DNA of 24,946 bases, taken from positions 1 to 24,946 of IMG/VR virus record IMGVR_UViG_3300032278_000112, one strand, 5' to 3'. Positions 1 to 24,142 of the stretch are shown here, in pieces. The first letter of the stretch is position 1, and the number at the start of each line of letters is the position of its first letter. The DNA is from a virus. A program made the position numbers and the translations under genes. The notes under the pieces were generated by a model. It searched no databases, had not been told where the DNA came from, and worked only from the letters and a program-made list of their open reading frames with translations.

Positions 1-233
1 CTTTTAAGATAAGAAACAAATTTTCCACGAGCAGGCTTAATAACTACTCCAGCAAATCCACAAACTCCACCTTCAACAACATAAGTTTTTTTGGAATAAT
101 CAATTTCATTACCCATCAACTCTGTAGGAGTTCCGACTACCATCGGAGTAACACCGACTCTACGACCAGCATCCATACCCATCAGATGGGCTCTCTCTAA
201 AACTTTTTCACAATGAACTTTGCTCATACTCAT
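1..233 (-). CDS. Conserved small phage protein, 3' end outside window
   Basis: The frame opens at an ATG at 233 and runs off the left edge, giving at least 77 residues beginning MSMSKVHCEKVLERAHLMGM. A second in-frame ATG lies two codons on. GAGAGA precedes the start by about 6 nt and serves as the SD sequence. The visible part ends with a GVCGFAGVVIKPARGKF stretch. I recognise that pattern from uncharacterised small phage proteins (usually GVCGFAWVxVxPAxGxF), but no function is known to me. It is the first gene after the promoter at 291-319, whose leader runs straight into its SD. No membrane segment or catalytic motif is visible. Confidence 0.75.
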   Translation of the reverse strand, partial: MSMSKVHCEKVLERAHLMGMDAGRRVGVTPMVVGTPTELMGNEIDYSKKTYVVEGGVCGFAGVVIKPARGKFVSYLK

Positions 234-290
234 AATAAATCTCTCAAAATTGGGAATTAATAGTCAGGAGAATTCCTAACCTTCACTTAT

Positions 291-319
291 ATTATCTCAA
301 AAACCAGCCATAGTGTCAA
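291..319 (-). promoter_or_regulatory. sigma70-type promoter, shared-leader family, copy 1
   Basis: On the minus strand TTGACA (319-314) and GATAAT (296-291) are separated by exactly 17 nt. It is flanked upstream by CCAATTATTGTC and downstream by ATAAGTGAAGG then GGAATTC, as in the related promoters at 1299, 6700 and 7524. It drives the gene starting at 233. The -10 differs from consensus by one base. Confidence 0.85.
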
Positions 320-337
320 GACAATAATTGGTTTTTT

Positions 338-427
338 CTAGATTAACGCAATCATAAAAAGTATTGATATATATGCAACACCAGATAACAATACTAGGAT
401 TGCAATTTCTTCAAGAAACATTTTCAT
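338..427 (-). CDS. 29-residue membrane peptide
   Basis: ATG at 427 is preceded by AGGAGTATATT, one of the best SD sequences in the window. The product begins MKMFLEEIAILVLLSGVAYI and is almost entirely one hydrophobic helix (about residues 8-29) with a short charged N-terminus. This suggests a single-pass inner-membrane micropeptide. It lies 9 nt downstream of the 24-residue gene and just upstream of the promoter at 291-319, so it closes the preceding unit. Function unknown. The strong SD and membrane character argue that it is translated, but size alone gives little statistical support. Confidence 0.55.
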   Translation of the reverse strand: MKMFLEEIAILVLLSGVAYISILFMIALI

Positions 428-436
428 AATATACTC

Positions 437-511
437 CTATTTTTTCTTTGATTTAACTTTTAATGATTCTAAAAACTTTTTGAAATTTTTCTGTTGTTCC
501 CACCTTTTCAT
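437..511 (-). CDS. 24-residue basic peptide
   Basis: ATG at 511 has GAGGTTGGAT immediately upstream as a plausible SD. The product (MKRWEQQKNFKKFLESLKVK then SKKK) is strongly basic and probably helical. It sits between the 98-residue protein (ends 524) and the 29-residue membrane peptide (starts 427) with only 9-12 nt gaps, which fits an operon of micro-genes. A nucleic-acid-binding role is only a guess from charge. Confidence 0.45.
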   Translation of the reverse strand: MKRWEQQKNFKKFLESLKVKSKKK

Positions 512-523
512 ATCCAACCTCTA

Positions 524-820
524 TTAAAATAATGAAGTATACATTCCAGTATGAGCAGTAAATTGATCTGTCAACATATCAAAATAAATGTTATTGTATT
601 CACTAACAGATTTCTTCTCACCCATTTTGGAAACTTTAGCAAATTCCATATCATAAGTATCCATTGAATTCAATGTGATCTTTAAATAATTAGAATTTGA
701 ACTGTTTCTACCAATCTTCATTACCAGACCATTAGAAAAACCCATAAAGTTTTTCGCTCCAGTCATCATACGGAATTTATTTCCGCCAAGTTGTTCTAAA
801 ATCGTTTTTGCTACACTCAT
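524..820 (-). CDS. Conserved phage protein (LGGNKF...MTGAKNF type)
   Basis: A 98-residue soluble protein starting MSVAKTILEQLGGNKF, with AGGATATATT upstream of the ATG. The pattern ILxQLGGNKF-xxMTGAKNF-GLxxKI-LKITLNSxDTYDMEF is one I recognise from small proteins scattered through phages and mobile elements of unrelated hosts. All are annotated as hypothetical, so the family is recognised but not its role. The DxYDxEF segment (about residues 54-61) and the C-terminal YTSLF are the most characteristic parts. There is no signal peptide or membrane segment. It sits 8 nt after the 53-residue gene, in the unit driven from 1299-1327. Confidence 0.85.
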   Translation of the reverse strand: MSVAKTILEQLGGNKFRMMTGAKNFMGFSNGLVMKIGRNSSNSNYLKITLNSMDTYDMEFAKVSKMGEKKSVSEYNNIYFDMLTDQFTAHTGMYTSLF

Positions 821-828
821 AATATATC

Positions 829-990
829 CTACTTTACACTTTCAACTAATGTTTCAACATCCGACACAAATCTAGTAACAACTTTACTAGGATTGAATCC
901 GACCCCAACTTCTTCACCAGAGAATTTAACACTAAATACTCCAGCAAAAAGCATATAAGCTAACGTTCCAATTGCTATATACTTAATCAT
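829..990 (-). CDS. 53-residue protein with N-terminal hydrophobic helix
   Basis: ATG at 990 overlaps the stop of the preceding small gene (ATGA), and AGGAGAAAGTT gives a strong SD. Residues 4-20 (YIAIGTLAYMLFAGVFS) form one hydrophobic helix, either an uncleaved anchor or a signal peptide. About 30 polar residues follow, ending VETLVESVK. There is no cysteine lipobox. Function unknown. The SD, the translational-coupling overlap and the short gap to the next gene make it a credible gene. Confidence 0.7.
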   Translation of the reverse strand: MIKYIAIGTLAYMLFAGVFSVKFSGEEVGVGFNPSKVVTRFVSDVETLVESVK

Positions 991-1082
991 AACTTTCTCC
1001 TGCGATGTTTATAACTCATTAAAACCCAGTCAAGTCTTTTACTAGATTTTTCTTCACTCACTCTTTTATACTTGGTCAACAT
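987..1082 (-). CDS. 31-residue very basic peptide
   Basis: This frame opens with ATG at 1082, encodes MLTKYKRVSEEKSSKRLDWV and ends with the basic tail YKHRRRKL. Its stop overlaps the next ATG (ATGA), suggesting translational coupling. No clear SD precedes its own start, so translation may depend on coupling to the 51-residue gene that ends 6 nt upstream. A nucleic-acid contact is possible from charge only. Confidence 0.4.
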   Translation of the reverse strand: MLTKYKRVSEEKSSKRLDWVLMSYKHRRRKL

Positions 1083-1088
1083 AATGAT

Positions 1089-1244
1089 CTATACCAAATC
1101 AATATGTTCTGTGATCACCATTCGACCACCAGTTTTCCAATGCTTAATAAAGCTGGCAATATCGTCTTCATAGGACATAACCATTTCAGCAAATCCCATT
1201 CTATCACCAAAGCATGATTCGTAAAACAATCTTATTCTACACAT
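1089..1244 (-). CDS. 51-residue phage protein, first gene of the 1299 promoter
   Basis: ATG at 1244 is preceded by AATAGAGTTTAATT (weak SD, AGAG). The product begins MCRIRLFYESCFGDRMGFAE and ends HIDLV. It has an acidic helix-like middle (EMVMSYEDDIASFIKHW) and two N-terminal cysteines (residues 2 and 11). No family is recognised. Its position directly after a consensus promoter and its conserved leader supports expression. Confidence 0.6.
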   Translation of the reverse strand: MCRIRLFYESCFGDRMGFAEMVMSYEDDIASFIKHWKTGGRMVITEHIDLV

Positions 1245-1298
1245 AATTAAACTCTATTGGGGGTTACGAGGCGAGAGGAATTCCCAACCTTCACTTAT

Positions 1299-1327
1299 AT
1301 TATATCAAATGGGGGGTGGAGTGTCAA
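1299..1327 (-). promoter_or_regulatory. Perfect-consensus sigma70 promoter, shared-leader family, copy 2
   Basis: Minus-strand TTGACA (1327-1322), a 17-nt spacer and TATAAT (1304-1299) match both boxes perfectly. CCAATTTTTATC lies upstream. Downstream comes ATAAGTGAAGGTTGGGAATTC and then GCCTCGTAACCC, nearly identical to the leader at 6660-6699. The transcript starts about 45 nt before the ATG at 1244. Confidence 0.92.
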
Positions 1328-1359
1328 GATAAAAATTGGTTATTTTGGTATTTTACCAA

Positions 1360-2004
1360 TTATTCTCTAGTAAATTTAGTAAACTCGCTTGTTGGGTAAG
1401 AGTTTTTGTCACATGTTGTATATAAAACATCTTCTTCCTGCTGTTGTCCGTATGGATTGGAGTAGTCGGTATAATAATATGAACAATAAAGAAAATCTCC
1501 TGTGTTCCACTCTCTATCATCTGGTCCACAATTTTTTGTAACATTCAATTTCCAATCATTATAATCACATTTAGAATCTTTATTATAAAGATTTACTGCT
1601 GAATCAGATTGCGGTGTTATTTTTATAGTAGATCCCATAGTTACTAAATAAGTTTTCGAATCAATATCAATAGAATAAGTGTGTTTTTCATCCTCTACAG
1701 CATAATTAGTAACACAATCTATATCAGAATACTCTTCAGTTTTTACAGATATGTCATTATCTACAAATGAAAATGAAAAATAATATGAGTGATTATCTTC
1801 ATTATCATAACAATCTGTTTTCCATATTTCTGCTGATTTTGTAGTAGCAGTTTGTGGACTGGAAAATTTTGTTCCACTTATGTTATCTCCATGATAATTT
1901 TTGGCTGGAGAAGTCGAAACATTCGCAGATGAACTGGGTGCATATTCTTCATTGTTTGCACAACCTAATAAAACGAGAAGTAAAGTGGGAATAATATATT
2001 TCAT
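1360..2004 (-). CDS. Predicted lipoprotein of unknown function
   Basis: I place the start at ATG 2004 because AAAGGAACAAC lies just upstream and the protein then opens with a lipoprotein signal, MKYIIPTLLLVLLGC, cleaved before Cys15 (lipobox LLGC). A longer in-frame extension exists but has no SD and would bury the signal. The mature part, about 200 residues, starts with a Ser/Asn-rich linker. It holds several cysteines (two CDxx pairs, an NCGPDD segment, CSYYY, TTCDKN) and many aromatic and acidic residues, as in exported disulfide-bonded proteins. It lies 25 nt downstream of the halogenase. Phage lipoproteins can act in superinfection exclusion or as o-spanins. It is too long for a typical o-spanin, so exclusion or surface alteration is the likelier guess. 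Confidence 0.75.
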   Translation of the reverse strand: MKYIIPTLLLVLLGCANNEEYAPSSSANVSTSPAKNYHGDNISGTKFSSPQTATTKSAEIWKTDCYDNEDNHSYYFSFSFVDNDISVKTEEYSDIDCVTNYAVEDEKHTYSIDIDSKTYLVTMGSTIKITPQSDSAVNLYNKDSKCDYNDWKLNVTKNCGPDDREWNTGDFLYCSYYYTDYSNPYGQQQEEDVLYTTCDKNSYPTSEFTKFTRE

Positions 2005-2029
2005 GTTGTTCCTTTCATAATATATTTCA

Positions 2030-3283
2030 TTAATCAGTTGTTTTTGGACTATAATATTTAAAATCATCTAAATAAACTCCCAATTGACACCAAATCCCTG
2101 AAGGAAATAAATTAGTATACTTATTACTATTTGATTGATAATTTTTCCAAAGCATTTTAGAACAATCATCTTTTATTTCTCGCATATGTCGCCAAAATTC
2201 TGTGTCTTCACGACCATTCAATGCATAATGTGTCAATTGAAAATCTAAACATTCTTTCCAGATTTTTATCATTAATTTATTATATGCTCGAGGACCTATT
2301 CCTCTTTTTAAGCATTTAACTAAAGTACTAATTCCAGTTTGTGTCATAACAAGAGCGGTAGCCTCTAATGGATCTACAAATCCAGCAGAAGATCCTATCG
2401 CAACAACATTATTACTCCAAGGATTTGCATATACTAAAGGTTTCCAGTTTATTAGTCTTGGTTCTTCCAATTTCTCACGGCCATTAATCATATGTTGTTC
2501 AAATTCTAAACTTGCCATTTCTTTATTAACATGTGATGAACTATAAACATATCCAATACTTACTCTATTTTTCAAACGTATTTCAAATTGCCACCCATAA
2601 CTTCTTGCAATAGATTTCGTTAAAAAAGTAGATTCATCTCTTTCTAAATTCTTTACTTGACATACTAATGCACTATCAGCATAATGATATTTACTAATAG
2701 GCATTTCCGTTTTATCTTGAACAAACTTTCTCTGAAATCCAGTACAATCAATATATAAATCATAACCAGAAGGCAATTCTTTCAATGTTGATTTAATATT
2801 TTTTGTTTTTTTACAATGATTTTTAACAATATCTGCCGCATTTGCCGCATCTAAATGATATCCATAATCTCTCCAACCTTGAGGTTTAGCGAACTCTTCT
2901 TGAAATATTTTCTTATTAATAACTCTATCTTTTCCTGATTCATATCTATAGTTTGCAGGATCTTTCATCATTTGATCAAAAGCATTATCATCATTTTGCC
3001 AAAAATATAAAGTAAAAGGATCACCCAATCCTGCCTCCTGATCCCATCCTGATTTCCAATTTCCATATTTTTTTATCGCCTGTGCTTTTGGCATCCATGT
3101 CTCTTCAGATATACCCAAATCATCAAACCATATTTTTATTTGAGGTAATGTAGATTCTCCCACACCTAAAATAGGAATATCTTCACTCTCATAAACTGTC
3201 AAATCATAATCTGGAAGATGTTTTTCAAAATAACCTGCAGTCCACCATCCAGCATGACCTCCACCAATTATACAAATCTTCAT
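2030..3283 (-). CDS. Flavin-dependent (tryptophan-type) halogenase-like protein
   Basis: A 417-residue FAD-dependent halogenase-family protein; SD AGGAAAAATAAT precedes the ATG. Visible motifs are the dinucleotide-binding GGGHAGW (residues 7-13), GVGESTLPQ (40-48), YDLYIDCTG before the second FAD segment, and FVDPLEATA, which matches the FLEPLESTG segment carrying the catalytic glutamate of PrnA. It is shorter than PrnA-type enzymes (about 500-540 residues). Two signature sites are altered. The WxWxIP motif reads WQFEIR. The region of the catalytic lysine (Lys79 in PrnA) reads MPKAQAIKKYGNW, where a gapless alignment to the tryptophan puts Gln at the lysine site, with lysines at 66, 71 and 72 nearby. 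A marine cyanophage halogenase (VirX1) is established, so a phage copy is plausible. The substrate is unknown, and a non-halogenating monooxygenase role cannot be excluded. tRNA-Val lies directly upstream. Confidence 0.85.
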   Translation of the reverse strand: MKICIIGGGHAGWWTAGYFEKHLPDYDLTVYESEDIPILGVGESTLPQIKIWFDDLGISEETWMPKAQAIKKYGNWKSGWDQEAGLGDPFTLYFWQNDDNAFDQMMKDPANYRYESGKDRVINKKIFQEEFAKPQGWRDYGYHLDAANAADIVKNHCKKTKNIKSTLKELPSGYDLYIDCTGFQRKFVQDKTEMPISKYHYADSALVCQVKNLERDESTFLTKSIARSYGWQFEIRLKNRVSIGYVYSSSHVNKEMASLEFEQHMINGREKLEEPRLINWKPLVYANPWSNNVVAIGSSAGFVDPLEATALVMTQTGISTLVKCLKRGIGPRAYNKLMIKIWKECLDFQLTHYALNGREDTEFWRHMREIKDDCSKMLWKNYQSNSNKYTNLFPSGIWCQLGVYLDDFKYYSPKTTD

Positions 3284-3302
3284 ATATTATTTTTCCTATA
3301 TT

Positions 3303-3378
3303 TGGTAGGGGTTATTGGAATCGAACCAATGACAATCTGCGTGTAAAACAGGCGCTCTCCCAACTGAGCTAAACCCCT
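3303..3378 (-). tRNA. tRNA-Val (anticodon TAC)
   Basis: The 76-nt cloverleaf includes an encoded CCA. Acceptor AGGGGTT pairs with AACCCCT, the D-arm is AGCTCAGTTGGGAGAGC, the anticodon loop TTTACAC gives UAC, and the T-arm is TTGGTTCGATTCCAA. It reads GUA and, if U34 is modified to cmo5U, further Val codons. Confidence 0.95.
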
Positions 3379-4059
3379 ATGATAAATATTATAATTATGG
3401 ATGAACTTACATACACATATAAAAATATGTTCCACGAGGAAAGTATAGGATTTCGTTTCTCCCCTCATGCTTCCCTAGAAGAAAAAACACTCACCGTAGG
3501 ACCAAATTCTAAACTGACAAAATCTTGTTCAACAACTATTGATGGACCTCATTTAACATTTGATTCTATAAAATGGAATGACATCTTAATGATAGATATA
3601 AAAATCGAAGCATTTCTTACAGGAGTAGCACAAAAAGTATTAAACAAAGCCATATTCAATTCAAATACCGGACCCAAAGATATGTCTTTTCAAAAACTTC
3701 TTATTCAGTTACATGTCGGTCAAAGTCTTCCCAGTCATAACTGTTCACCAGCATATTATGGAGAAATAATTCAAGAAGCATTTGATTATTTCAATCAAAT
3801 AAATTCTGCTGTGATTGAACAATTCCAAATTCACAACCGCAAAAAGATGATTTATCTTGAATATATCATAATAGATAATCAAACAATTTATCTAACCCCA
3901 TTAACAAATATGAAAACCGATATGTTTTGTGATATCGAAATTCATACGCATCAAAATCAATTCGTTATAATTGAAAAATGGAGTGTCCGACAGGATTCGA
4001 ACCTGCATGATACGGGTTTGCAATCCGATACCTATCCATTCAGTCACAGACACAATTAA
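3379..4059 (+). CDS. Unrecognised protein on the opposite strand
   Basis: This is the only convincing plus-strand gene in the window. The frame is open for 226 codons, from an ATG touching the 5' end of tRNA-Val to a stop just past tRNA-Cys. No minus-strand frame covers 3470-3978. Codon third positions are mostly A/T, as in neighbouring genes, and the middle looks like a real folded protein (YYGEIIQEAFDYFNQINSAV). The C-terminal 25 or so residues are read antisense through tRNA-Cys and are probably not native, so the gene may have lost its true 3' end there. The start is uncertain: ATGs at 3379, 3397 and 3427 all lack an SD. No domain is recognised and no plus-strand promoter is evident. It could be a newly acquired or decaying gene. 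Confidence 0.55.
   Translation: MINIIIMDELTYTYKNMFHEESIGFRFSPHASLEEKTLTVGPNSKLTKSCSTTIDGPHLTFDSIKWNDILMIDIKIEAFLTGVAQKVLNKAIFNSNTGPKDMSFQKLLIQLHVGQSLPSHNCSPAYYGEIIQEAFDYFNQINSAVIEQFQIHNRKKMIYLEYIIIDNQTIYLTPLTNMKTDMFCDIEIHTHQNQFVIIEKWSVRQDSNLHDTGLQSDTYPFSHRHN
3979..4053 (-). tRNA. tRNA-Cys (anticodon GCA)
   Basis: The 75-nt cloverleaf has acceptor GTGTCTG pairing with CGGACAC (one G-U), discriminator U and encoded CCA. The anticodon loop TTGCAAA gives GCA. The T-arm is GCAGGTTCGAATCCTGT. It lies antisense to the 3' end of the plus-strand gene and 2 nt from the end of the CmcI-like gene. Confidence 0.95.
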
Positions 4060-4841
4060 AAAACTTTAAATATCGAGTCAACACAACAAGTAGTATTTCT
4101 TCCAAAGAAATCTACATAAAAATTATCAACTTTATATTTATTTTTTGCATTAGATAAAAAATCAACTATCTCAGATTCTTTTTTTTCACTATCTTCAATA
4201 ATAAGATAATCACCTTCTCTAAGGAGTAAATCTGTTTTTAAAAGTACTTCTTTTACATTTACATGAGCATCTTCAATAACTAATTTTTTACCCCGCCATC
4301 GTTCTAAAATTACAAAATCTTGTACAAGATCAAGATTTACAAAATCAACTTTTGGATGTAGCATATTTGGGGGGTTTATGTCGTAACTAATAACATCAGT
4401 ATCAAGTCCCATTACTGAACTAATATCAGCTAACCAAATAGCACTTCCTCCTAATCCCGATCCATATTCTACTATCGTATTGGGTTTCAATTCAGAAATC
4501 AGCATCCAATAAATTACAAGATCATATACACTTTTATATAAACCCAAATCTTTCCATTTAATTAATGAATGAGTGCCTTGAGATGTTGCCGTCTGAATCC
4601 AACTCATTGTTCTTTTCTTATTACTTAAAGAACAATTTTCCCTAGACCTGTTTTCATAACTAGAAAATCTATTAGATTTTGAATTTAAAAGTTGTTCCCA
4701 TAAATTTAAAATAGGTGAATAAATCTTTTCATCTTCTTCTTTAATACCCAAATCATATATGAGATTATCAAAAAAAGTAGGAACATCTCCTTGGCTTTTT
4801 AGCTTTTTTTGTAGGAGTGTTTCAACTTTTTGTTTATTCAT
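4056..4841 (-). CDS. CmcI/cephalosporin-hydroxylase-family SAM methyltransferase
   Basis: A 261-residue protein whose C-terminal two thirds is a Rossmann-type SAM fold. Motif I is IVEYGSGLGGSAIW (residues 123-136), followed by a conserved acidic residue in SYDINPP (about 152-158). VIEDAHVN (188-195) and LLREGDYLIIED (206-217) are the pattern of the CmcI family (cephalosporin hydroxylase / rhamnosyl O-methyltransferase). Members methylate hydroxyls on sugars or small molecules using SAM and a metal. The substrate here is unknown. The N-terminal 90 residues are charged and less conserved. No SD precedes the ATG at 4841, which lies 14 nt after tRNA-Asp, so the message may start by processing from the tRNA transcript. 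Confidence 0.8.
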   Translation of the reverse strand: MNKQKVETLLQKKLKSQGDVPTFFDNLIYDLGIKEEDEKIYSPILNLWEQLLNSKSNRFSSYENRSRENCSLSNKKRTMSWIQTATSQGTHSLIKWKDLGLYKSVYDLVIYWMLISELKPNTIVEYGSGLGGSAIWLADISSVMGLDTDVISYDINPPNMLHPKVDFVNLDLVQDFVILERWRGKKLVIEDAHVNVKEVLLKTDLLLREGDYLIIEDSEKKESEIVDFLSNAKNKYKVDNFYVDFFGRNTTCCVDSIFKVF

Positions 4842-4855
4842 AATAATTATTTAAA

Positions 4856-4933
4856 TGGCGGTCCCAATGGGATTTGAACCCATGTTGCTAGATTGACAAT
4901 CTAGAGTCCTAGGCCTAACTGAACGATGGGACC
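4856..4933 (-). tRNA. tRNA-Asp (anticodon GTC)
   Basis: The 78-nt cloverleaf has acceptor GGTCCCA pairing with TGGGACC, a G discriminator and encoded CCA. The anticodon stem CTAGA/TCTAG encloses loop TTGTCAA (GUC). The T-arm is CATGGGTTCAAATCCCATT. Confidence 0.95.
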
Positions 4934-5097
4934 AGTAAAAATAGCAAGGGGCAGGCTTATGCGTAGCTCTGAGCTTATTCCACGCTCCCCATACCCCTCA
5001 TAGCATCCGTAACCTCAAGTCCCGTCTGGCATGTTCACGCATCACAAAGTGATCGTAGTAGCTGGTCGACTCTCTCGTACAGATGGTTAGCTAATTT
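4934..5097 (-). ncRNA. Candidate structured non-coding RNA between tRNA-Asp and a small gene
   Basis: The 164 nt contain no credible gene and are clearly richer in G+C than their surroundings. Several nested stems can be drawn: AGGGG (4947-4951) with CCCCT (4994-4998), enclosing GCGT (4961-4964) with ACGC (4982-4985) and AGCT with AGCT (4965-4975); ATCAC-AAA-GTGAT (5041-5053); TAGCT (5059-5063) with AGCTA (5089-5093). In the minus orientation there are also two tiny overlapping frames, of 14 and 8 codons. It matches no RNA class I can name (not tmRNA, 6S, RNase P or a hammerhead core). Being embedded between tRNAs, it would be co-transcribed and could be processed with them. Strand is assigned from the neighbours. 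Confidence 0.45.
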
Positions 5098-5250
5098 TTA
5101 AAAAGGACAGCCTGATGCAACTGAACAAAATCCATGCGGCTTGTCCCAATGATATACTGTCGAACTAATCAATGCAATCCATATTGAATTTTTCCATAAC
5201 CAAGACCATGTAAGCCATGGTATAAACGGAATTATTACTTCTAAACCCAT
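5098..5250 (-). CDS. 50-residue Trp-rich membrane peptide
   Basis: ATG at 5250 is preceded by AGAGATTTAAT (SD AGAGA). The product starts MGLEVIIPFIPWLTWSWLWK. It contains one or two hydrophobic segments (about 4-19 and 22-34) unusually rich in tryptophan, then a polar tail with two cysteines (CSVASGCPF at the end). Probably a small membrane protein. It lies 15 nt downstream of tRNA-Ile and directly upstream of the candidate structured RNA. Function unknown. Confidence 0.6.
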   Translation of the reverse strand: MGLEVIIPFIPWLTWSWLWKNSIWIALISSTVYHWDKPHGFCSVASGCPF

Positions 5251-5265
5251 ATTAAATCTCTATAT

Positions 5266-5342
5266 TGGTAGGCGAGGTTGGAATTGAACCAACGACCTCC
5301 ACCGTATCAGAGTGGCATTCTAACCTGCTGAACTACTCGCCT
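5266..5342 (-). tRNA. tRNA-Ile (anticodon GAT)
   Basis: The 77-nt cloverleaf has acceptor AGGCGAG pairing with CTCGCCT, discriminator A and encoded CCA. The anticodon stem CCACT/GGTGG encloses loop CTGATAC (GAU). The T-arm is CGTTGGTTCAATTCCAACC. It lies 2 nt from tRNA-Tyr, so the pair is co-transcribed. Confidence 0.95.
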
Positions 5343-5344
5343 AT

Positions 5345-5429
5345 TGGTGGGGAGGGATGGAGTCGAACCATCACAGTCTCAGACGGCTGATTTACAGTCA
5401 GTTGGGCTCGCCACTTGCTCAGCCTCCCC
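5345..5429 (-). tRNA. tRNA-Tyr (anticodon GTA)
   Basis: This class II tRNA of 85 nt has a long variable arm. Acceptor GGGGAGG pairs with CCTCCCC, followed by discriminator A and encoded CCA. Anticodon loop CTGTAAA gives GUA. Its 5' half overlaps in sense the 3' end of the small gene at 5379-5537, whose stop codon lies inside the variable region. Confidence 0.95.
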
Positions 5430-5537
5430 TTTATTTTCAACAATTCTATATGCAGTATTTCTTGCTTCTATTTCTCCAAATCCTTCTTGAAGAAGATCCC
5501 TATAAATATGTTCTACTAATCTTTGTTCAAAACTCAT
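5379..5537 (-). CDS. Small protein whose 3' end runs into tRNA-Tyr
   Basis: ATG at 5537 overlaps the stop of the metallopeptidase gene (ATGA), and CGGAGAAAAT provides an SD. The product is 52 residues, starting MSFEQRLVEHIYRDLLQEGF. The first 36 residues look like a normal helical small phage protein. From residue 37 (GEAEQVASPTDCKSAV) the sequence is simply tRNA-Tyr read in sense, and the stop TGA (5379-5381) is inside the tRNA. The tRNA 5' end falls exactly on a codon boundary after Lys36. RNase P processing would therefore leave a stop-less message. The original gene was probably longer and was truncated by acquisition of the tRNA. Function unknown. Confidence 0.6.
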   Translation of the reverse strand: MSFEQRLVEHIYRDLLQEGFGEIEARNTAYRIVENKGEAEQVASPTDCKSAV

Positions 5538-6052
5538 ATTTTCTCCGTTTCTTGTTTTACGAAATCATCCCAAACTGAAATAAATGATAAAAACAAACCA
5601 CGTTGTCTGCCATGTGCTTCTATTTCATATGGTAATTCAAAATATTCAGTCAAATCTTCAGGAGTAAATTCTTTATTTTTCCAACGTAAGGTACCTGATC
5701 TCCAGGTCAATTCTCCAATAAGATATTGTTTAATATGTACTAACTCATGAGCTAAAGTTTCAAGAATCTGATGAACCCATTCATCGCCACCTCTTCTACG
5801 ACCATATTCATCTTCATTCATTTTGCGATGATCAAGAATAATTTGAAACTTCCTTGGTCTGTAGACATTAGTACCAGGTTTAATTTTTGCTTCGCCACCA
5901 TCAATATGGCGCCTCATATGTACATCTATTTCTACATTATCTAAAAGTCTTTCACGATTAGGAAGCAATTTTGTTAGACCATAAGCGGTCATACCAACAA
6001 TTGCATCCTTAACGTTTTGATCAAAATTTCTACAATGAAGATTAACTTTCAT
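5534..6052 (-). CDS. Putative zinc metallopeptidase (HExxH)
   Basis: A 172-residue protein with a clear zinc-protease motif, LAHELVHIKQY: His102, Glu103 and His106. Downstream, LPYEIEAHG contains Glu143, Glu145 and His147, any of which could be the third zinc ligand. The arrangement resembles SprT-like or other small phage HExxH proteins. Family assignment beyond gluzincin-like is not secure. There is no signal peptide, so it would act in the cytoplasm. GGAGCTTATTAA precedes the ATG, and the preceding gene stops at the adjacent base (6053). It is translationally coupled to the small gene that overlaps tRNA-Tyr. Substrate unknown. Confidence 0.75.
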   Translation of the reverse strand: MKVNLHCRNFDQNVKDAIVGMTAYGLTKLLPNRERLLDNVEIDVHMRRHIDGGEAKIKPGTNVYRPRKFQIILDHRKMNEDEYGRRRGGDEWVHQILETLAHELVHIKQYLIGELTWRSGTLRWKNKEFTPEDLTEYFELPYEIEAHGRQRGLFLSFISVWDDFVKQETEKI

Positions 6053-6421
6053 TTAATAAGCTCCAGTCCATCTTACACAACGAAAACCTTTTTCTTCAAA
6101 AACATTTCCCCTTGCAAAGTTTCTTGCAGGAGCTGACCAACCAGCAGGCTTCAAAATGTCTCCGAAACGAAATTTTTTATCACGATCAGTATTAACAACA
6201 AAAGCACAAACAGAAGTACTTCCTCTTTTTCCGCTTATCACTTTTATATATTTAGAACCATATTCATAAACAAGACCATCAGCAAATTCTTTTTCCATCT
6301 GCTTTTTGATTTCATCTGATCCACTTTTACCTGCTCTTGACCATGAATTATAACTTTCTATCATGACATCAAGCATTTCGTCCATTTTATCGGACATTAC
6401 TTCATTTTCTATAACACGCAT
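6053..6421 (-). CDS. Conserved phage protein (GDILKPAGWxAPARNFARGN type)
   Basis: A 122-residue soluble protein starting MRVIENEVMSDKMDEMLDVM. The N-terminal third is helical and charged. The rest has a beta-rich pattern including YIKVISGKRGSTSVCAFVV and the distinctive GDILKPAGWSAPARNFARGN followed by FRCVRWTGAY at the end. I recognise this C-terminal signature from uncharacterised proteins in many large phages, usually 90-150 residues long. No enzymatic role is known to me. It lies between the small gene at 6431 and the metallopeptidase, in the unit driven from 6700-6728. Confidence 0.8.
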   Translation of the reverse strand: MRVIENEVMSDKMDEMLDVMIESYNSWSRAGKSGSDEIKKQMEKEFADGLVYEYGSKYIKVISGKRGSTSVCAFVVNTDRDKKFRFGDILKPAGWSAPARNFARGNVFEEKGFRCVRWTGAY

Positions 6422-6430
6422 AATTTTTCT

Positions 6431-6646
6431 CTATACTGAAAGATGTTTAATACTAGTAAATGCTTCTGACATTCGGGCTTTTCCCGATCCATTCTTACCC
6501 ATACGGGTTTTACCAGAACCTCCACGATAATTCGCAGAGTATTTTGAAAACAAATTTAGTGATTTGGCACCGAGAATCTTTTCGGATCGCTTAATACGAC
6601 CACCTCTAGACAAGAATTCTTCTACTGTTTCAAGTCTTTCATTCAT
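6431..6646 (-). CDS. Small basic phage protein
   Basis: A 71-residue protein starting MNERLETVEEFLSRGGRIKR, with AGAGATCAAAT before the ATG. The TVEEFLxRGGxIK segment is common at the N-terminus of small phage proteins of unknown role. The rest is rich in Gly, Ser, Lys and Arg (GGSGKTRMGKNGSGKARM), probably disordered and possibly nucleic-acid binding. GGSGKT resembles a P-loop, but the context (no preceding hydrophobic strand) makes ATP binding unlikely. It is the first gene of the promoter at 6700-6728. Confidence 0.7.
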   Translation of the reverse strand: MNERLETVEEFLSRGGRIKRSEKILGAKSLNLFSKYSANYRGGSGKTRMGKNGSGKARMSEAFTSIKHLSV

Positions 6647-6699
6647 ATTTGATCTCTATGAGGGTTACGAGGCGGGATGAATTCCCATCCTTCACTTAT

Positions 6700-6728
6700 A
6701 TTATATCGAATATGGGGTGGAGTGTCAA
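6700..6728 (-). promoter_or_regulatory. Perfect-consensus sigma70 promoter, shared-leader family, copy 3
   Basis: Minus-strand TTGACA (6728-6723), 17 nt, TATAAT (6705-6700). CCAAGAAATGTC lies upstream. Downstream is ATAAGTGAAGG, GGGAATTC and GCCTCGTAACCC, almost identical to the copy at 1260-1340. The early leader can form GGATG-GGAATT-CATCC. It drives 6646 to 5379 and probably the tRNAs beyond. Confidence 0.92.
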
Positions 6729-6755
6729 GACATTTCTTGGTTATTTTGGAGGAAT

Positions 6756-6829
6756 TGGAGCGAGTGACAGGAATCGAACCCGCATTATAAGATTGGAAAT
6801 CTCAGGTATTACCATTATACGACACTCGC
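6756..6829 (-). tRNA. tRNA-Gly (anticodon TCC)
   Basis: The 74-nt cloverleaf has acceptor GCGAGTG pairing with CACTCGC, discriminator U and encoded CCA. Anticodon loop TTTCCAA gives UCC. The T-arm is GCGGGTTCGATTCCTGT. Its first 15 nt overlap in sense the 3' end of the gene at 6815-7126. Confidence 0.95.
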
Positions 6830-7126
6830 TTTACCTTTATTTTCAATTAAAACAACTCTATTGAGGTAGGTTTGTGATGTTCCTTTGAATAATTTATACT
6901 TAGCAATTGTTGCTGTTACTGCAATACAATCACCTTCATCGATAGGAACATCATTTTCATTCTTTATATTATAAAAAGTTGCTTGCTTTCCATCTCTACT
7001 ACTTAATATATGAATTGTAAAAGCAGGAAACTTCAATCGTTTCTCAAGTTTGAGAAAGAATCTCCCACGATACTTAATGGGTCCCATGTATTTGTTATCT
7101 TCCACTTTCATTTGTAAAAAGCCCAT
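6815..7126 (-). CDS. Small protein whose stop codon lies inside tRNA-Gly
   Basis: A 103-residue protein starting MGFLQMKVEDNKYMGPIKYR; an alternative start is the ATG five codons on (7111). GGAG and GAGATAAA lie upstream. The pattern RGRFFLKLEKRLKFPAFTIHILSSRDG, TFYN, then DCIAVTATIAKYK...TYLNRVVLIE is beta-rich and looks like a small OB-fold-type or DUF-type phage domain. I cannot name it with confidence. The last four codons and the TAA stop are the first 15 nt of tRNA-Gly, and the tRNA 5' end falls on a codon boundary. Processing by RNase P would remove the stop codon. The gene is coupled closely to 7128-7298 upstream. Confidence 0.75.
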   Translation of the reverse strand: MGFLQMKVEDNKYMGPIKYRGRFFLKLEKRLKFPAFTIHILSSRDGKQATFYNIKNENDVPIDEGDCIAVTATIAKYKLFKGTSQTYLNRVVLIENKGKASVV

Positions 7127-7127
7127 T

Positions 7128-7298
7128 TTATCTCAAGCCACTCCAATTCATATAAGGATCATCATACATTTCCCTTTGAGCTTGTTCTTTTCTCAACATT
7201 CTAATCTCATCTCCACGAATATCATCTAATACATGTTGAGGAATTTTTTCAGTTTCTTTAATCATATGGTCATTAAACTTCTTTTTTTCTGTTCCCAT
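7128..7298 (-). CDS. 56-residue charged helical protein
   Basis: ATG at 7298 lies one base after the stop of the zinc-ribbon gene (TAAATG), and its own stop lies one base before the next ATG, so all three genes look translationally coupled. The product begins MGTEKKKFNDHMIKETEKIP. It is dominated by a charged helix around residues 22-44 (DDIRGDEIRMLRKEQAQREM) and ends YMNWSGLR. No known family. The SD is weak (GAAAGAC). Confidence 0.65.
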   Translation of the reverse strand: MGTEKKKFNDHMIKETEKIPQHVLDDIRGDEIRMLRKEQAQREMYDDPYMNWSGLR

Positions 7299-7299
7299 T

Positions 7300-7485
7300 T
7301 TAGTCTTTCATCTTAAATTTATTTTTGCTAAGAATTGAAGCAGGTGAATCTGACAACCAATTCTTAGGTGCTTCTTTCGCACATTTTTCAGAACAAGCAA
7401 ACGCAAGATCCTCACTAAGATTCCAATGATGACCTATGTCTATTGATCCTTTTAATATTCTCTTTCCACAATTACTACAAATCAT
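7300..7485 (-). CDS. Small zinc-ribbon protein
   Basis: A 61-residue protein with a strong SD (AAGGAGTATATT) and a putative zinc site made by Cys3-x2-Cys6 (MICSNCGKR) and Cys31-x3-Cys35 (FACSEKCAK). This C4 spacing is common in small phage zinc ribbons and treble-clef proteins that bind nucleic acid or partner proteins. The basic tail ILSKNKFKMKD would suit nucleic-acid binding. It is the first gene after the promoter at 7524-7552. Specific function unknown. Confidence 0.75.
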   Translation of the reverse strand: MICSNCGKRILKGSIDIGHHWNLSEDLAFACSEKCAKEAPKNWLSDSPASILSKNKFKMKD

Positions 7486-7523
7486 AATATACTCCTTAAC
7501 AATTATTTTTAACCTTCACTTAT

Positions 7524-7552
7524 ATGGTATCAAATCTAGTGAGGAGTGTCAA
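7524..7552 (-). promoter_or_regulatory. sigma70-type promoter, shared-leader family, copy 4
   Basis: Minus-strand TTGACA (7552-7547), 17 nt, TACCAT (7529-7524), with CCAACAATTGTC upstream and ATAAGTGAAGGTT downstream. The -10 is the weakest of the family and the GGAATTC leader element is absent. The stop codon of the gene at 7549-8076 (TGA) is formed by the -35 box itself. Confidence 0.75.
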
Positions 7553-8076
7553 GACAATTGTTGGTTCATACCAATTAAATGCATACGATTAGAATCAAGA
7601 CTTGCATTAATCGGAGTGTGTGGTTTAGTAGTATCGCAAAGATACGCAGAACCATTAGCAAACAAATGATGTGCATATTGATCTATCATAAGAAAACAAT
7701 TTTCATTTGTATCTATTGGTATGTGAATACGTTTTCTTGGATCTGCATGATATGATAAACACGTTTTGGGTTTTAAAATCATAACACGGGTTCTGAACAT
7801 AAGCAAGTCTTCTATTATAGAATTTGTATAATCTAGTTCAGGAAAAAGAAGCACATTAAAATCTTCTTCTTTAAGTCCGTCATCTGCTATATGTTTTAGA
7901 GTTCGGCTTCCAAAATAAGGATCCATTTCTGCATTTATTCCTTGCAAACAAATTTGAACTGAAAGATGAGAATCGTCCATTTGGTCTTGAAATTGATCTT
8001 CATTAAGAACAAATGTTTGAAGTTCAGTATATATTCTTTCAGTATCAATATCGGTTTTTATTGTTTTTACATTCAT
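7549..8076 (-). CDS. Aspartyl/asparaginyl beta-hydroxylase-like 2OG oxygenase
   Basis: A 175-residue protein; AAGGAAATATATT precedes the ATG. The C-terminal half is a cupin-type 2-oxoglutarate/Fe(II) domain. SYHADPRKRIHIPIDTN gives His110 and Asp112 of the HxD motif and the RxHIPxxTN pattern typical of the Asp/Asn hydroxylase family. KPHTPINAS gives the distal His153, and NRMHLIGM gives Arg164 for 2OG binding. Such enzymes hydroxylate amino-acid side chains or small substrates. The target here is unknown. It follows the radical SAM gene by 23 nt, making it the last gene of the 11084-7549 enzyme unit. Confidence 0.8.
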   Translation of the reverse strand: MNVKTIKTDIDTERIYTELQTFVLNEDQFQDQMDDSHLSVQICLQGINAEMDPYFGSRTLKHIADDGLKEEDFNVLLFPELDYTNSIIEDLLMFRTRVMILKPKTCLSYHADPRKRIHIPIDTNENCFLMIDQYAHHLFANGSAYLCDTTKPHTPINASLDSNRMHLIGMNQQLS

Positions 8077-23081: not shown

Positions 23082-23120
23082 GGTTCCATCCTATATAGAA
23101 AAAAATATTGAAAAAAAAAT

Positions 23121-23510
23121 TTAGTCATAGATTATATATTGAAATCGTACTGGCACATAATCTAGCTTTAATTCAAGTGCTATTACCAGACGGTGATTTC
23201 CATCTGCTATGTTCTTTGAAGGGATATCTGTTTTCCATTTATCCTCAATATCTTCTTCTAATAATTCTTTAATAGAAGTAGCAGATGGGAATCTTGGAAA
23301 TTCACTTAACACTTTACTTGACACTTTATTGAATGTACCAATACGCACAATTATTGGACGTTTAGAATCAAAACCATTTGTTAATATATCTTTCTCTAGA
23401 AAAGAGAAGATGGGGAAATCACGAGGTGAGACAGGTGAAGGGATAGGTAGTAATGTAGGACTAATATAAAAAAGTTTTGATAATTTAAGTTTTTTGTAAT
23501 AATCTTGCAT
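23121..23510 (-). CDS. ParB/Srx-fold protein, copy 3 (longest spacer)
   Basis: Start at ATG 23510 (MQDYYKKLKLSKLFYISPTL), 129 residues; a longer in-frame extension into the T-rich leader is unlikely to be native. It shares with its two neighbours an N-terminal KLSKLFYI strand, LTNGFDSKRPIIVR, and a C-terminal block ADGNHRLVIALELKLDYVPV. DGNHRL (103-108) is the nucleotide/DNA-binding motif of the ParB N-terminal/sulfiredoxin superfamily. Copy 3 has an extra segment of about 45 residues between the two cores. No helix-turn-helix follows, so it is not a full partition ParB. Roles in this superfamily include CTP or ATP binding, DNA nicking and toxin activity. The leader is T-rich without an SD. 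Confidence 0.78.
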   Translation of the reverse strand: MQDYYKKLKLSKLFYISPTLLPIPSPVSPRDFPIFSFLEKDILTNGFDSKRPIIVRIGTFNKVSSKVLSEFPRFPSATSIKELLEEDIEDKWKTDIPSKNIADGNHRLVIALELKLDYVPVRFQYIIYD

Positions 23511-23532
23511 AAAAAAAATACTGAGAAAAAAA

Positions 23533-23784
23533 TTAAATATCAACCTTATATTCAAACCGTACTGGTACATAGTCTAGCTTCAATTCAAGTGCTACTGCCA
23601 GACGATGATTTCCATCTGCTATACGTTTACCTCCCCATAAACGAATTATTATTGGATGTTTGGAATCAAAACCATCTCTTAATATATCTTTCTTTACGGT
23701 GGAGAGATGAGCAATCCCAGGATCGCCTCCCAGAGATCCAGGATGAACATAAAAAATATCTGATAATTTAACTTGACCTGACAT
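23533..23784 (-). CDS. ParB/Srx-fold protein, copy 2 (minimal)
   Basis: An 83-residue protein, MSGQVKLSDIFYVHPGSLGG, then LRDGFDSKHPIIIRLWGGKR and IADGNHRLAVALELKLDYVP. The DGNHRL motif is at 57-62. It is the shortest of the three, close to a minimal ParB/Srx half-domain. C-terminal blocks of copies 2 and 3 differ at only a few residues, which indicates recent duplication. The leader TTTTTCTCAGAAGTTTTTCT precedes the ATG in place of an SD. A regulatory or nuclease activity cannot be inferred from this size alone. Confidence 0.78.
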   Translation of the reverse strand: MSGQVKLSDIFYVHPGSLGGDPGIAHLSTVKKDILRDGFDSKHPIIIRLWGGKRIADGNHRLAVALELKLDYVPVRFEYKVDI

Positions 23785-23806
23785 AGAAAAACTTCTGAGA
23801 AAAATT

Positions 23807-24142
23807 TTAGTTATAAATTATATATTCAAATCGTACTGGCACATAGTCTAACTTTAATTCATTAGCTATTGCTAAACGATGATTTCCATCTATTATATTA
23901 TCAGAATCTAAATGAATTAGTATTGGGTGTTTATCATCAAAACCTTTTCTTGATATTTCTGATTTTAATGCATCCCATCTATTCCATCTTTCTTCATCAG
24001 ATGCATTGAGCGAAAGCATAGGTAATCCTGTATCTATGTCTTCGATACGATTACTCCAGCAATTCTCCTTATTACGTATGTCGTGTTTGATATATTTAGG
24101 ATTAACATAAAAAATTTTTGATAATTTAATTTGATTAGACAT
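23807..24142 (-). CDS. ParB/Srx-fold protein, copy 1
   Basis: A 111-residue protein, MSNQIKLSKIFYVNPKYIKH, with an acidic linker (IEDIDTGLPMLSLNASDEER). It then shares KGFDDKHPILIHL and IIDGNHRLAIANELKLDYVP with the next two genes; DGNHRL is at 85-90. The insertion between strand 1 and the helix differs in each copy, so the core has been kept while a loop or linker diversified. The leader is T-rich (GAGATTTTTTCT) and shared in style with copies 2 and 3. No DNA-binding domain is attached. It may bind nucleotides or act on DNA, unproven. Confidence 0.78.
   Translation of the reverse strand: MSNQIKLSKIFYVNPKYIKHDIRNKENCWSNRIEDIDTGLPMLSLNASDEERWNRWDALKSEISRKGFDDKHPILIHLDSDNIIDGNHRLAIANELKLDYVPVRFEYIIYN

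Follow-up and report, generated by a model that had tools for sequence, protein, structure and literature searches.

The window analysed here, a stretch of 24,946 nucleotides of viral DNA (IMG/VR virus record IMGVR_UViG_3300032278_000112, positions 1 to 24,946), carries four minus-strand copies of one promoter cassette, designated p291, p1299, p6700 and p7524. In each copy a sigma70-type promoter is followed by a conserved start region and, in three of the four, by a leader in which a hairpin is predicted close to where the RNA begins. The reading that we favour, and hold to be moderately probable as a whole, is that these are early-promoter cassettes akin to the promoter-early stem-loop (PeSL) cassettes of T4-type phages, with the hairpin placed in the leader, where it would protect the 5' end of the mRNA and leave the ribosome site open. 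The cassette itself, as judged from the comparison of sequences, is well supported and very probably a genuine unit.

All four copies follow a common plan, which consists of AACCAA, CTTGACACT, a 17-nt spacer, the -10 box and ATAAGTGAAGG. The original prediction had placed four minus-strand promoters with common boxes in this DNA, and all of them were recovered at those places, with a spacing of exactly 17 nt in each. The conserved upstream CCAA that it had pointed out is part of AACCAA, which is present in all four copies, 8 nt upstream of TTGACACT. The boxes score 10 to 12 out of 12 and the -10 box is perfect in two copies; by these letters the four are strong sigma70-type promoters. The TTGA described at the end of the spacer is also there (TCGA in p6700), with the correction that in three of the four copies it includes the extended -10 element (TGn), p6700 being the copy without TGn. 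The start region directly downstream of the -10 box, the 11-mer ATAAGTGAAGG, occurs at the four promoters and nowhere else in the window when both strands are searched with up to one mismatch, where about 0.01 sites would be expected from base counting. The counts of GGAATTC (three copies, equally far from the -10 box, p7524 being without it) and of GCCTCGTAACCC (two copies, at 1261 and 6662) were right as well. The suggested scan for additional copies gave a divided outcome: no fifth cassette copy was found in the other 17 kb of the 24.9-kb fragment, and further copies were found in related phages.

The bases that follow GTGAAGG in the leader pair with one another in a variety of sequences, e.g. 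TTGGGA-ATTCC-TCCCGA, TTAGGA-ATTC-TCCTGA, TTGAAG-ATTGA-CTTCAA, AGGGG-ATTAA-CCCCT and others. Across the relatives the loop reads ATTCC, ATTC, AGTCC, ATTA, ATTGA or ATTAA, and the flanking arms stay paired by compensatory changes, which are also seen between copies inside one genome (GAAG/CTTC and GAGG/CCTC in L064). Since the z-scores of single leader sequences are too weak to decide, comparative tests were used. In 23 aligned leaders, which are kin to each other, so that the shuffle counts cannot be read as probabilities, and some of which had been inspected before the hairpin structure was defined, standard pairs fill 82.1% of the cells versus 71.8% with the 3' letters reshuffled, both sides change at seven of the eight pairs, and the covariation of 0.504 (0.321 when shuffled) is reached by none of 500 shuffles. 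When the partner arm is slid along these leaders, pairing drops sharply at every offset, and leaders pair better with their own arms than with arms swapped among them (197 versus a mean of 182.6, 0 of 5000). By one fixed rule a hairpin is found in 38 of 67 leaders; dinucleotide-shuffled leaders give 25.6 (sd 2.8), and windows at coding starts give 10 of 66. In 35 of the 38 hairpin leaders, counted from the predicted start, the first pair lies at +1 to +5. When R1, a covariance model built for the element, was run over 976 kb, 19 matches reached at least 34.9 bits. Every one of them is at a cassette, and p291, p1299 and p6700 are among them; many of the 19 are in the training set of R1, and the telling point is that the next-best score is 16.9 bits. 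A search of Rfam returned tRNAs only and no family for the leader.

Besides the kinship of the leaders, it weighs against the proposed hairpin that 29 of the 67 related leaders, p7524 included, are without it, for which reason it cannot be required at every early gene, and that the fold z-scores of single sequences are modest, from 0 to -2.6 in the window. The leader of p7524 has no stable hairpin (0.0 kcal/mol) and is no match to R1 (8.3 bits); this copy is a separate subtype. The comparative evidence nevertheless makes it very likely that the RNA fold of the leader is real.

Related sequences hold the same cassette family. A first viral scan gave many matches in seemingly unrelated contigs, and only those with a GTGAAGG leader or with T4-type neighbours were kept. 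The block recurs, exactly or with one mismatch, in L041, G003, G006, G007, L064 and contig C18 (28 kb, of G015), and the p291 promoter is also present in C18, G003, G007 and L041. The p7524 subtype is found in G008-G010, L006, L021 and the 161-kb contig C1. In other relatives, promoters built in this way are numerous, and their upstream, spacer and leader signature is particular to each phage; in L053, for example, ATAAACAC-TTGAC-N18-TATAATGGTCCATGAAGGTAGGGGATTAACCCCTTCC is repeated, with small changes, before several genes. No such cassette is present in the Pelagibacter phages HTVC008M and Mosig, and R1 did not find the leader element in these two, in Melnitz or in the first 50 kb of RB49.

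The cassettes precede different genes in different phages. Positions 250-346 of the window (p291) are 90% identical to positions 2872-2967 of C18, and the gene that follows differs. The 85 bp at 7482-7566 (p7524) are the main stretch that the window has in common with phages of the G008 and C1 types, about 83% identical and without the flanks, and in those phages the block precedes a different gene, of 200 aa; the place orthologous to p7524 in G007 and C18 has a promoter without the leader signature, plus extra small genes. At p6700, a 55-aa gene adjoins the cassette in G003, G007 and C18, which is lacking there in the window and which resembles the gene after p1299 in the window (38-40% identity). 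Gene B stands directly behind a cassette in G003, G006 and G007 and three genes behind p1299 in the window. The gene after p291 is 98.4% identical in L041 and the window, yet the promoter cores are only 0.78 alike, less than the two cassettes of L041 to one another (0.88), and in C18 one leader (GGTTAGGAATTCTCCTGACTATTAACCCCC) is found at two cassettes. Recombination of like cassettes would explain the copies before different genes, the sharing without flanks and the homogenisation within genomes; the pattern is plain in the alignments, and exchange and homogenisation by recombination is the process that we infer from it. The copies before different genes and the homogenisation favour the earlier suggestion that the promoters spread as a mobile regulatory cassette.

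In the mechanism that we propose, the AACCAA-CTTGACACT-N-TATAAT promoter, with its 17-nt spacing and mostly an extended -10, would recruit the sigma70-type RNA polymerase of the host, and transcription, presumably early, would begin near the G of GTGAAGG. In three of the four copies the first 25-30 nt or so would then fold into the stem-loop, with about five or fewer unpaired nt at the 5' end; relative to the predicted start this is the 5'-terminal position of a stabilising stem-loop, and in the predicted fold the ribosome site and the start codon downstream of it are unpaired. The most likely role of the stem-loop would be to protect early mRNAs against 5'-end-dependent decay by shielding their 5' ends, and to provide every swapped-in gene with one standard open leader, while phage recombination would swap alike cassettes together with the genes behind them. 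Structures at the 5' end hinder RppH and 5'-tethered RNase E (reviewed in PMC3997798). Since the hairpin is near the 5' end, the ribosome site is open and 5' structure hinders these enzymes, protection of the 5' end with a standard open leader is our best guess for the function of the hairpin, to which we give roughly even chances.

The symmetry of the leader could also be a property of the DNA. If GGAATTCC and its neighbours were a palindromic site through which a phage or host regulator controls all copies jointly, GGAATTC would be expected at an equal distance from the -10 box, as in three window copies, and a DNA palindrome would likewise show symmetrical changes. However, the L064 copies differ in their letters with pairing kept, p7524 is without the site, and GAATTC, with 11 occurrences in the window, is not specific to promoter sites. 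Since the letters vary across relatives while compensatory changes keep the arms paired, an RNA hairpin is preferred over a fixed protein site. The GGAATTC of the three copies fits as part of such a hairpin; GAATTC as an operator or a part of one, as the original prediction had proposed, was rejected, and joint control through such a site seems highly improbable. That the leader has no function beyond the promoter, and that start region and leader are alike through recent duplication or conversion only, is improbable too: the homogenisation within genomes is clear, but compensatory changes across lineages and a hairpin position fixed near +1 are unexpected without selection on structure.

Antitermination would give the leader a function as RNA. 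In a put- or nut-like leader the nascent hairpin, with or without a phage protein, modifies RNA polymerase to read through terminators and tRNA genes, and this would suit both a repeated structured element with which several presumably early transcripts begin and the tRNA genes that lie downstream of the cassettes in the same direction of transcription. The put and nut elements, however, keep specific bases, whereas here the letters of stem and loop vary freely among the copies of one genome and between genomes, with no conserved protein- or polymerase-binding bases in either; many promoters of the same phages are without the hairpin, and no boxA was demonstrated, which leaves antitermination unlikely. 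We are similarly doubtful of a classical PeSL, the stem-loop of which would mainly terminate transcription from upstream and so insulate inserted genes. The kind of phage, the kind of promoter and the shuffling are the same, p1299 has an AT-rich, terminator-like stem-loop with a T-run just ahead of it, and p7524 and G007:19445 are preceded by perfect inverted repeats. The leader hairpin, however, has no T-run after it on either strand and was rejected as an intrinsic terminator on this ground, and neither p291 nor p6700 nor most of the relatives have the upstream stem-loop. A broader proposal would see in the hairpin a 5'-terminal RNA element that is common to a whole lineage of uncultured marine T4-type phages, recombines as one unit with promoters and marks early mRNAs, via a phage or host factor, for antitermination, selective stability or selective translation; this is conceivable, with a rather low probability. 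Protection of the 5' end by a hairpin that travels with a PeSL-like promoter is thus the reading that we retain. The cassettes, their leaders and the genes directly behind them are listed in Table 1.

Table 1. Promoter cassettes of the window, with their leaders and first genes
Feature	Positions	Strand	Details
p291 promoter	291..333	-	AACCAA 328-333; -35 TTGACA 314-319; 17-nt spacer ending TGA; -10 GATAAT 291-296
p291 start region ATAAGTGAAGG	280..290	-	predicted transcription start ~284-286, from distance to -10
p291 leader hairpin	258..285	-	stem GTTAGGA/TCCTGA-, loop ATTC; fold -10.0 kcal/mol, z -2.6; R1 34.9 bits at 253-286
Gene A, first after p291	3..233	-	77 aa in window, cut by contig end; 129 aa in relatives; no match in PHROG or Pfam
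p1299 promoter	1299..1341	-	AACCAA 1336-1341; -35 TTGACA 1322-1327; -10 TATAAT 1299-1304
p1299 start region ATAAGTGAAGG and hairpin element	1260..1298	-	start region 1288-1298; hairpin element 1260-1294; fold -6.5 kcal/mol, z near 0 alone; R1 37.7 bits
Gene D, first after p1299	1089..1244	-	51 aa, no assigned function
p6700 promoter	6700..6742	-	AACCAA 6737-6742; -35 TTGACA 6723-6728; -10 TATAAT 6700-6705
p6700 start region ATAAGTGAAGG and hairpin element	6661..6699	-	start region 6689-6699; hairpin element 6661-6695; fold -9.3 kcal/mol; R1 36.6 bits
Gene F, first after p6700	6431..6646	-	71 aa, no assigned function
p7524 promoter	7524..7566	-	AACCAA 7561-7566; -35 TTGACA 7547-7552; -10 TACCAT 7524-7529
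p7524 start region ATAAGTGAAGG and short leader with AGGAG	7482..7523	-	start region 7513-7523
CxxC gene, first after p7524	7300..7485	-	61 aa; zinc-ribbon-like by eye; no Pfam match

The window appears to be the variable, tRNA-bearing, small-gene part of the genome of a marine T4-type myovirus. The T4-type capsid gene gp23 itself is absent from the window, and the assignment was made via related records and the bin of C18 and C1: much of the window shows synteny with C18, which was binned together with C1, C1 matches the gp23-bearing G008 over 62 kb, and G006 matches C1 as well as C18, for which reasons the window was assigned to a T4-type phage. The related IMG/VR records G001 and G008-G010 carry gp23, and in the closest capsid match one related-record capsid protein is 63-67% identical to those of the Pelagibacter phages HTVC008M and Mosig and the Methylophilales phage Melnitz. 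No near match to the window was found among the deposited phages searched. The bin in question is a marine one labelled Chloroflexi (NAT137; L177 and L178 are C1 and C18 of G015) and includes at least two contigs of T4-type phages, of 161 kb and 28 kb, which are probably one phage genome binned with a bacterium. As a pointer to the host this bin was rejected, the cassettes there being located on phage contigs; the remaining bacterial matches of the same scan look like chance promoter matches.

Several other features of the window adjoin its tRNA genes. A tryptophan halogenase gene (PF04820) at 2030-3283 is next to a tRNA-Val; the viral scan gave a single close relative, 87% identical, which is found in G003, elsewhere in that contig. 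An ORF of 226 aa (3379-4059) is encoded on the plus strand, opposite to its neighbours, and its end overlaps a tRNA-Cys; its DNA is 76-80% identical in L041, G003 and G007, and it has no PHROG match. The non-coding stretch 4934-5110 adjoins a tRNA-Asp, and its last 120 nt or so are near-identical in the window, L041 and G003 and diverged in C18. It has no Rfam match and a fold energy that is not unusual; it could be a small phage RNA. Finally, several stretches within 23095-23896 match the same two stretches of C18 (at 19.4-19.9 kb); this points to duplicated genes that form a small family.

Among the known systems, T4 has early promoters of an extended sigma70 type in many copies, which conserve more than the two boxes. 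The cassettes described here share the many copies and the conservation beyond the boxes; they differ in being homogenised per genome, spacer and leader included. In the early leaders of T4 we know of no 5'-terminal covarying hairpin. In its very few unpaired 5' nucleotides and the open ribosome site downstream, the leader hairpin resembles the 5' stem-loop of the ompA mRNA (PMC3997798), whereas in the cassettes a single element is used for many phage genes and moves together with the promoter, and stabilisation is presumed. The related marine T4-type phage Melnitz also has a repeated family of early promoters, TTGAC-N18-TATAAT/TATACT (PMC9004378), with a spacer signature of its own, the inverted repeat TTTGTT...AACA, and R1 finds nothing significant there. 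Inverted repeats in the spacers of early-type promoters are found in Melnitz (L131-L133) as well as in RB49 (GGGGATC...GATCCCC, L157), and these palindromes could be operators or PeSL stem-loops.

The closest known kind appears to be the PeSL of T4-type phages, reportedly described by Arbiol et al. 2010 and Comeau et al. 2014 (cited in PMC4503421). PeSLs are strong sigma70-type early promoters with a stem-loop, present in several near-identical copies and connected with the gain, loss and swapping of genes in variable small-gene regions. A T4-type genome, a strong sigma70-type promoter, an associated stem-loop, several copies and shuffling edges at the cassettes are all found here. The stem-loop, however, belongs to the leader, where the new RNA begins, and is without a T-run, whereas the inverted repeats of RB49 lie in the spacer, across the -10 box or, as a terminator, upstream; the sequence, AACCAA and the host differ as well. 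Since a putative terminator is seen upstream of p1299 only and the conserved stem-loop sits elsewhere, the cassettes look like a new PeSL variant rather than plain members of the class, and the comparison suggests that the unit that moves and is homogenised is the promoter plus a structured 5' leader. The PeSL idea, which stems from T4-type phages of enterobacteria and vibrios, is thereby extended to uncultured marine T4-type phages, in which the cassette edges provide a sequence handle on the swapping of small genes and the cassettes offer a direct way to ask if early phage mRNAs owe protection to 5' hairpins.

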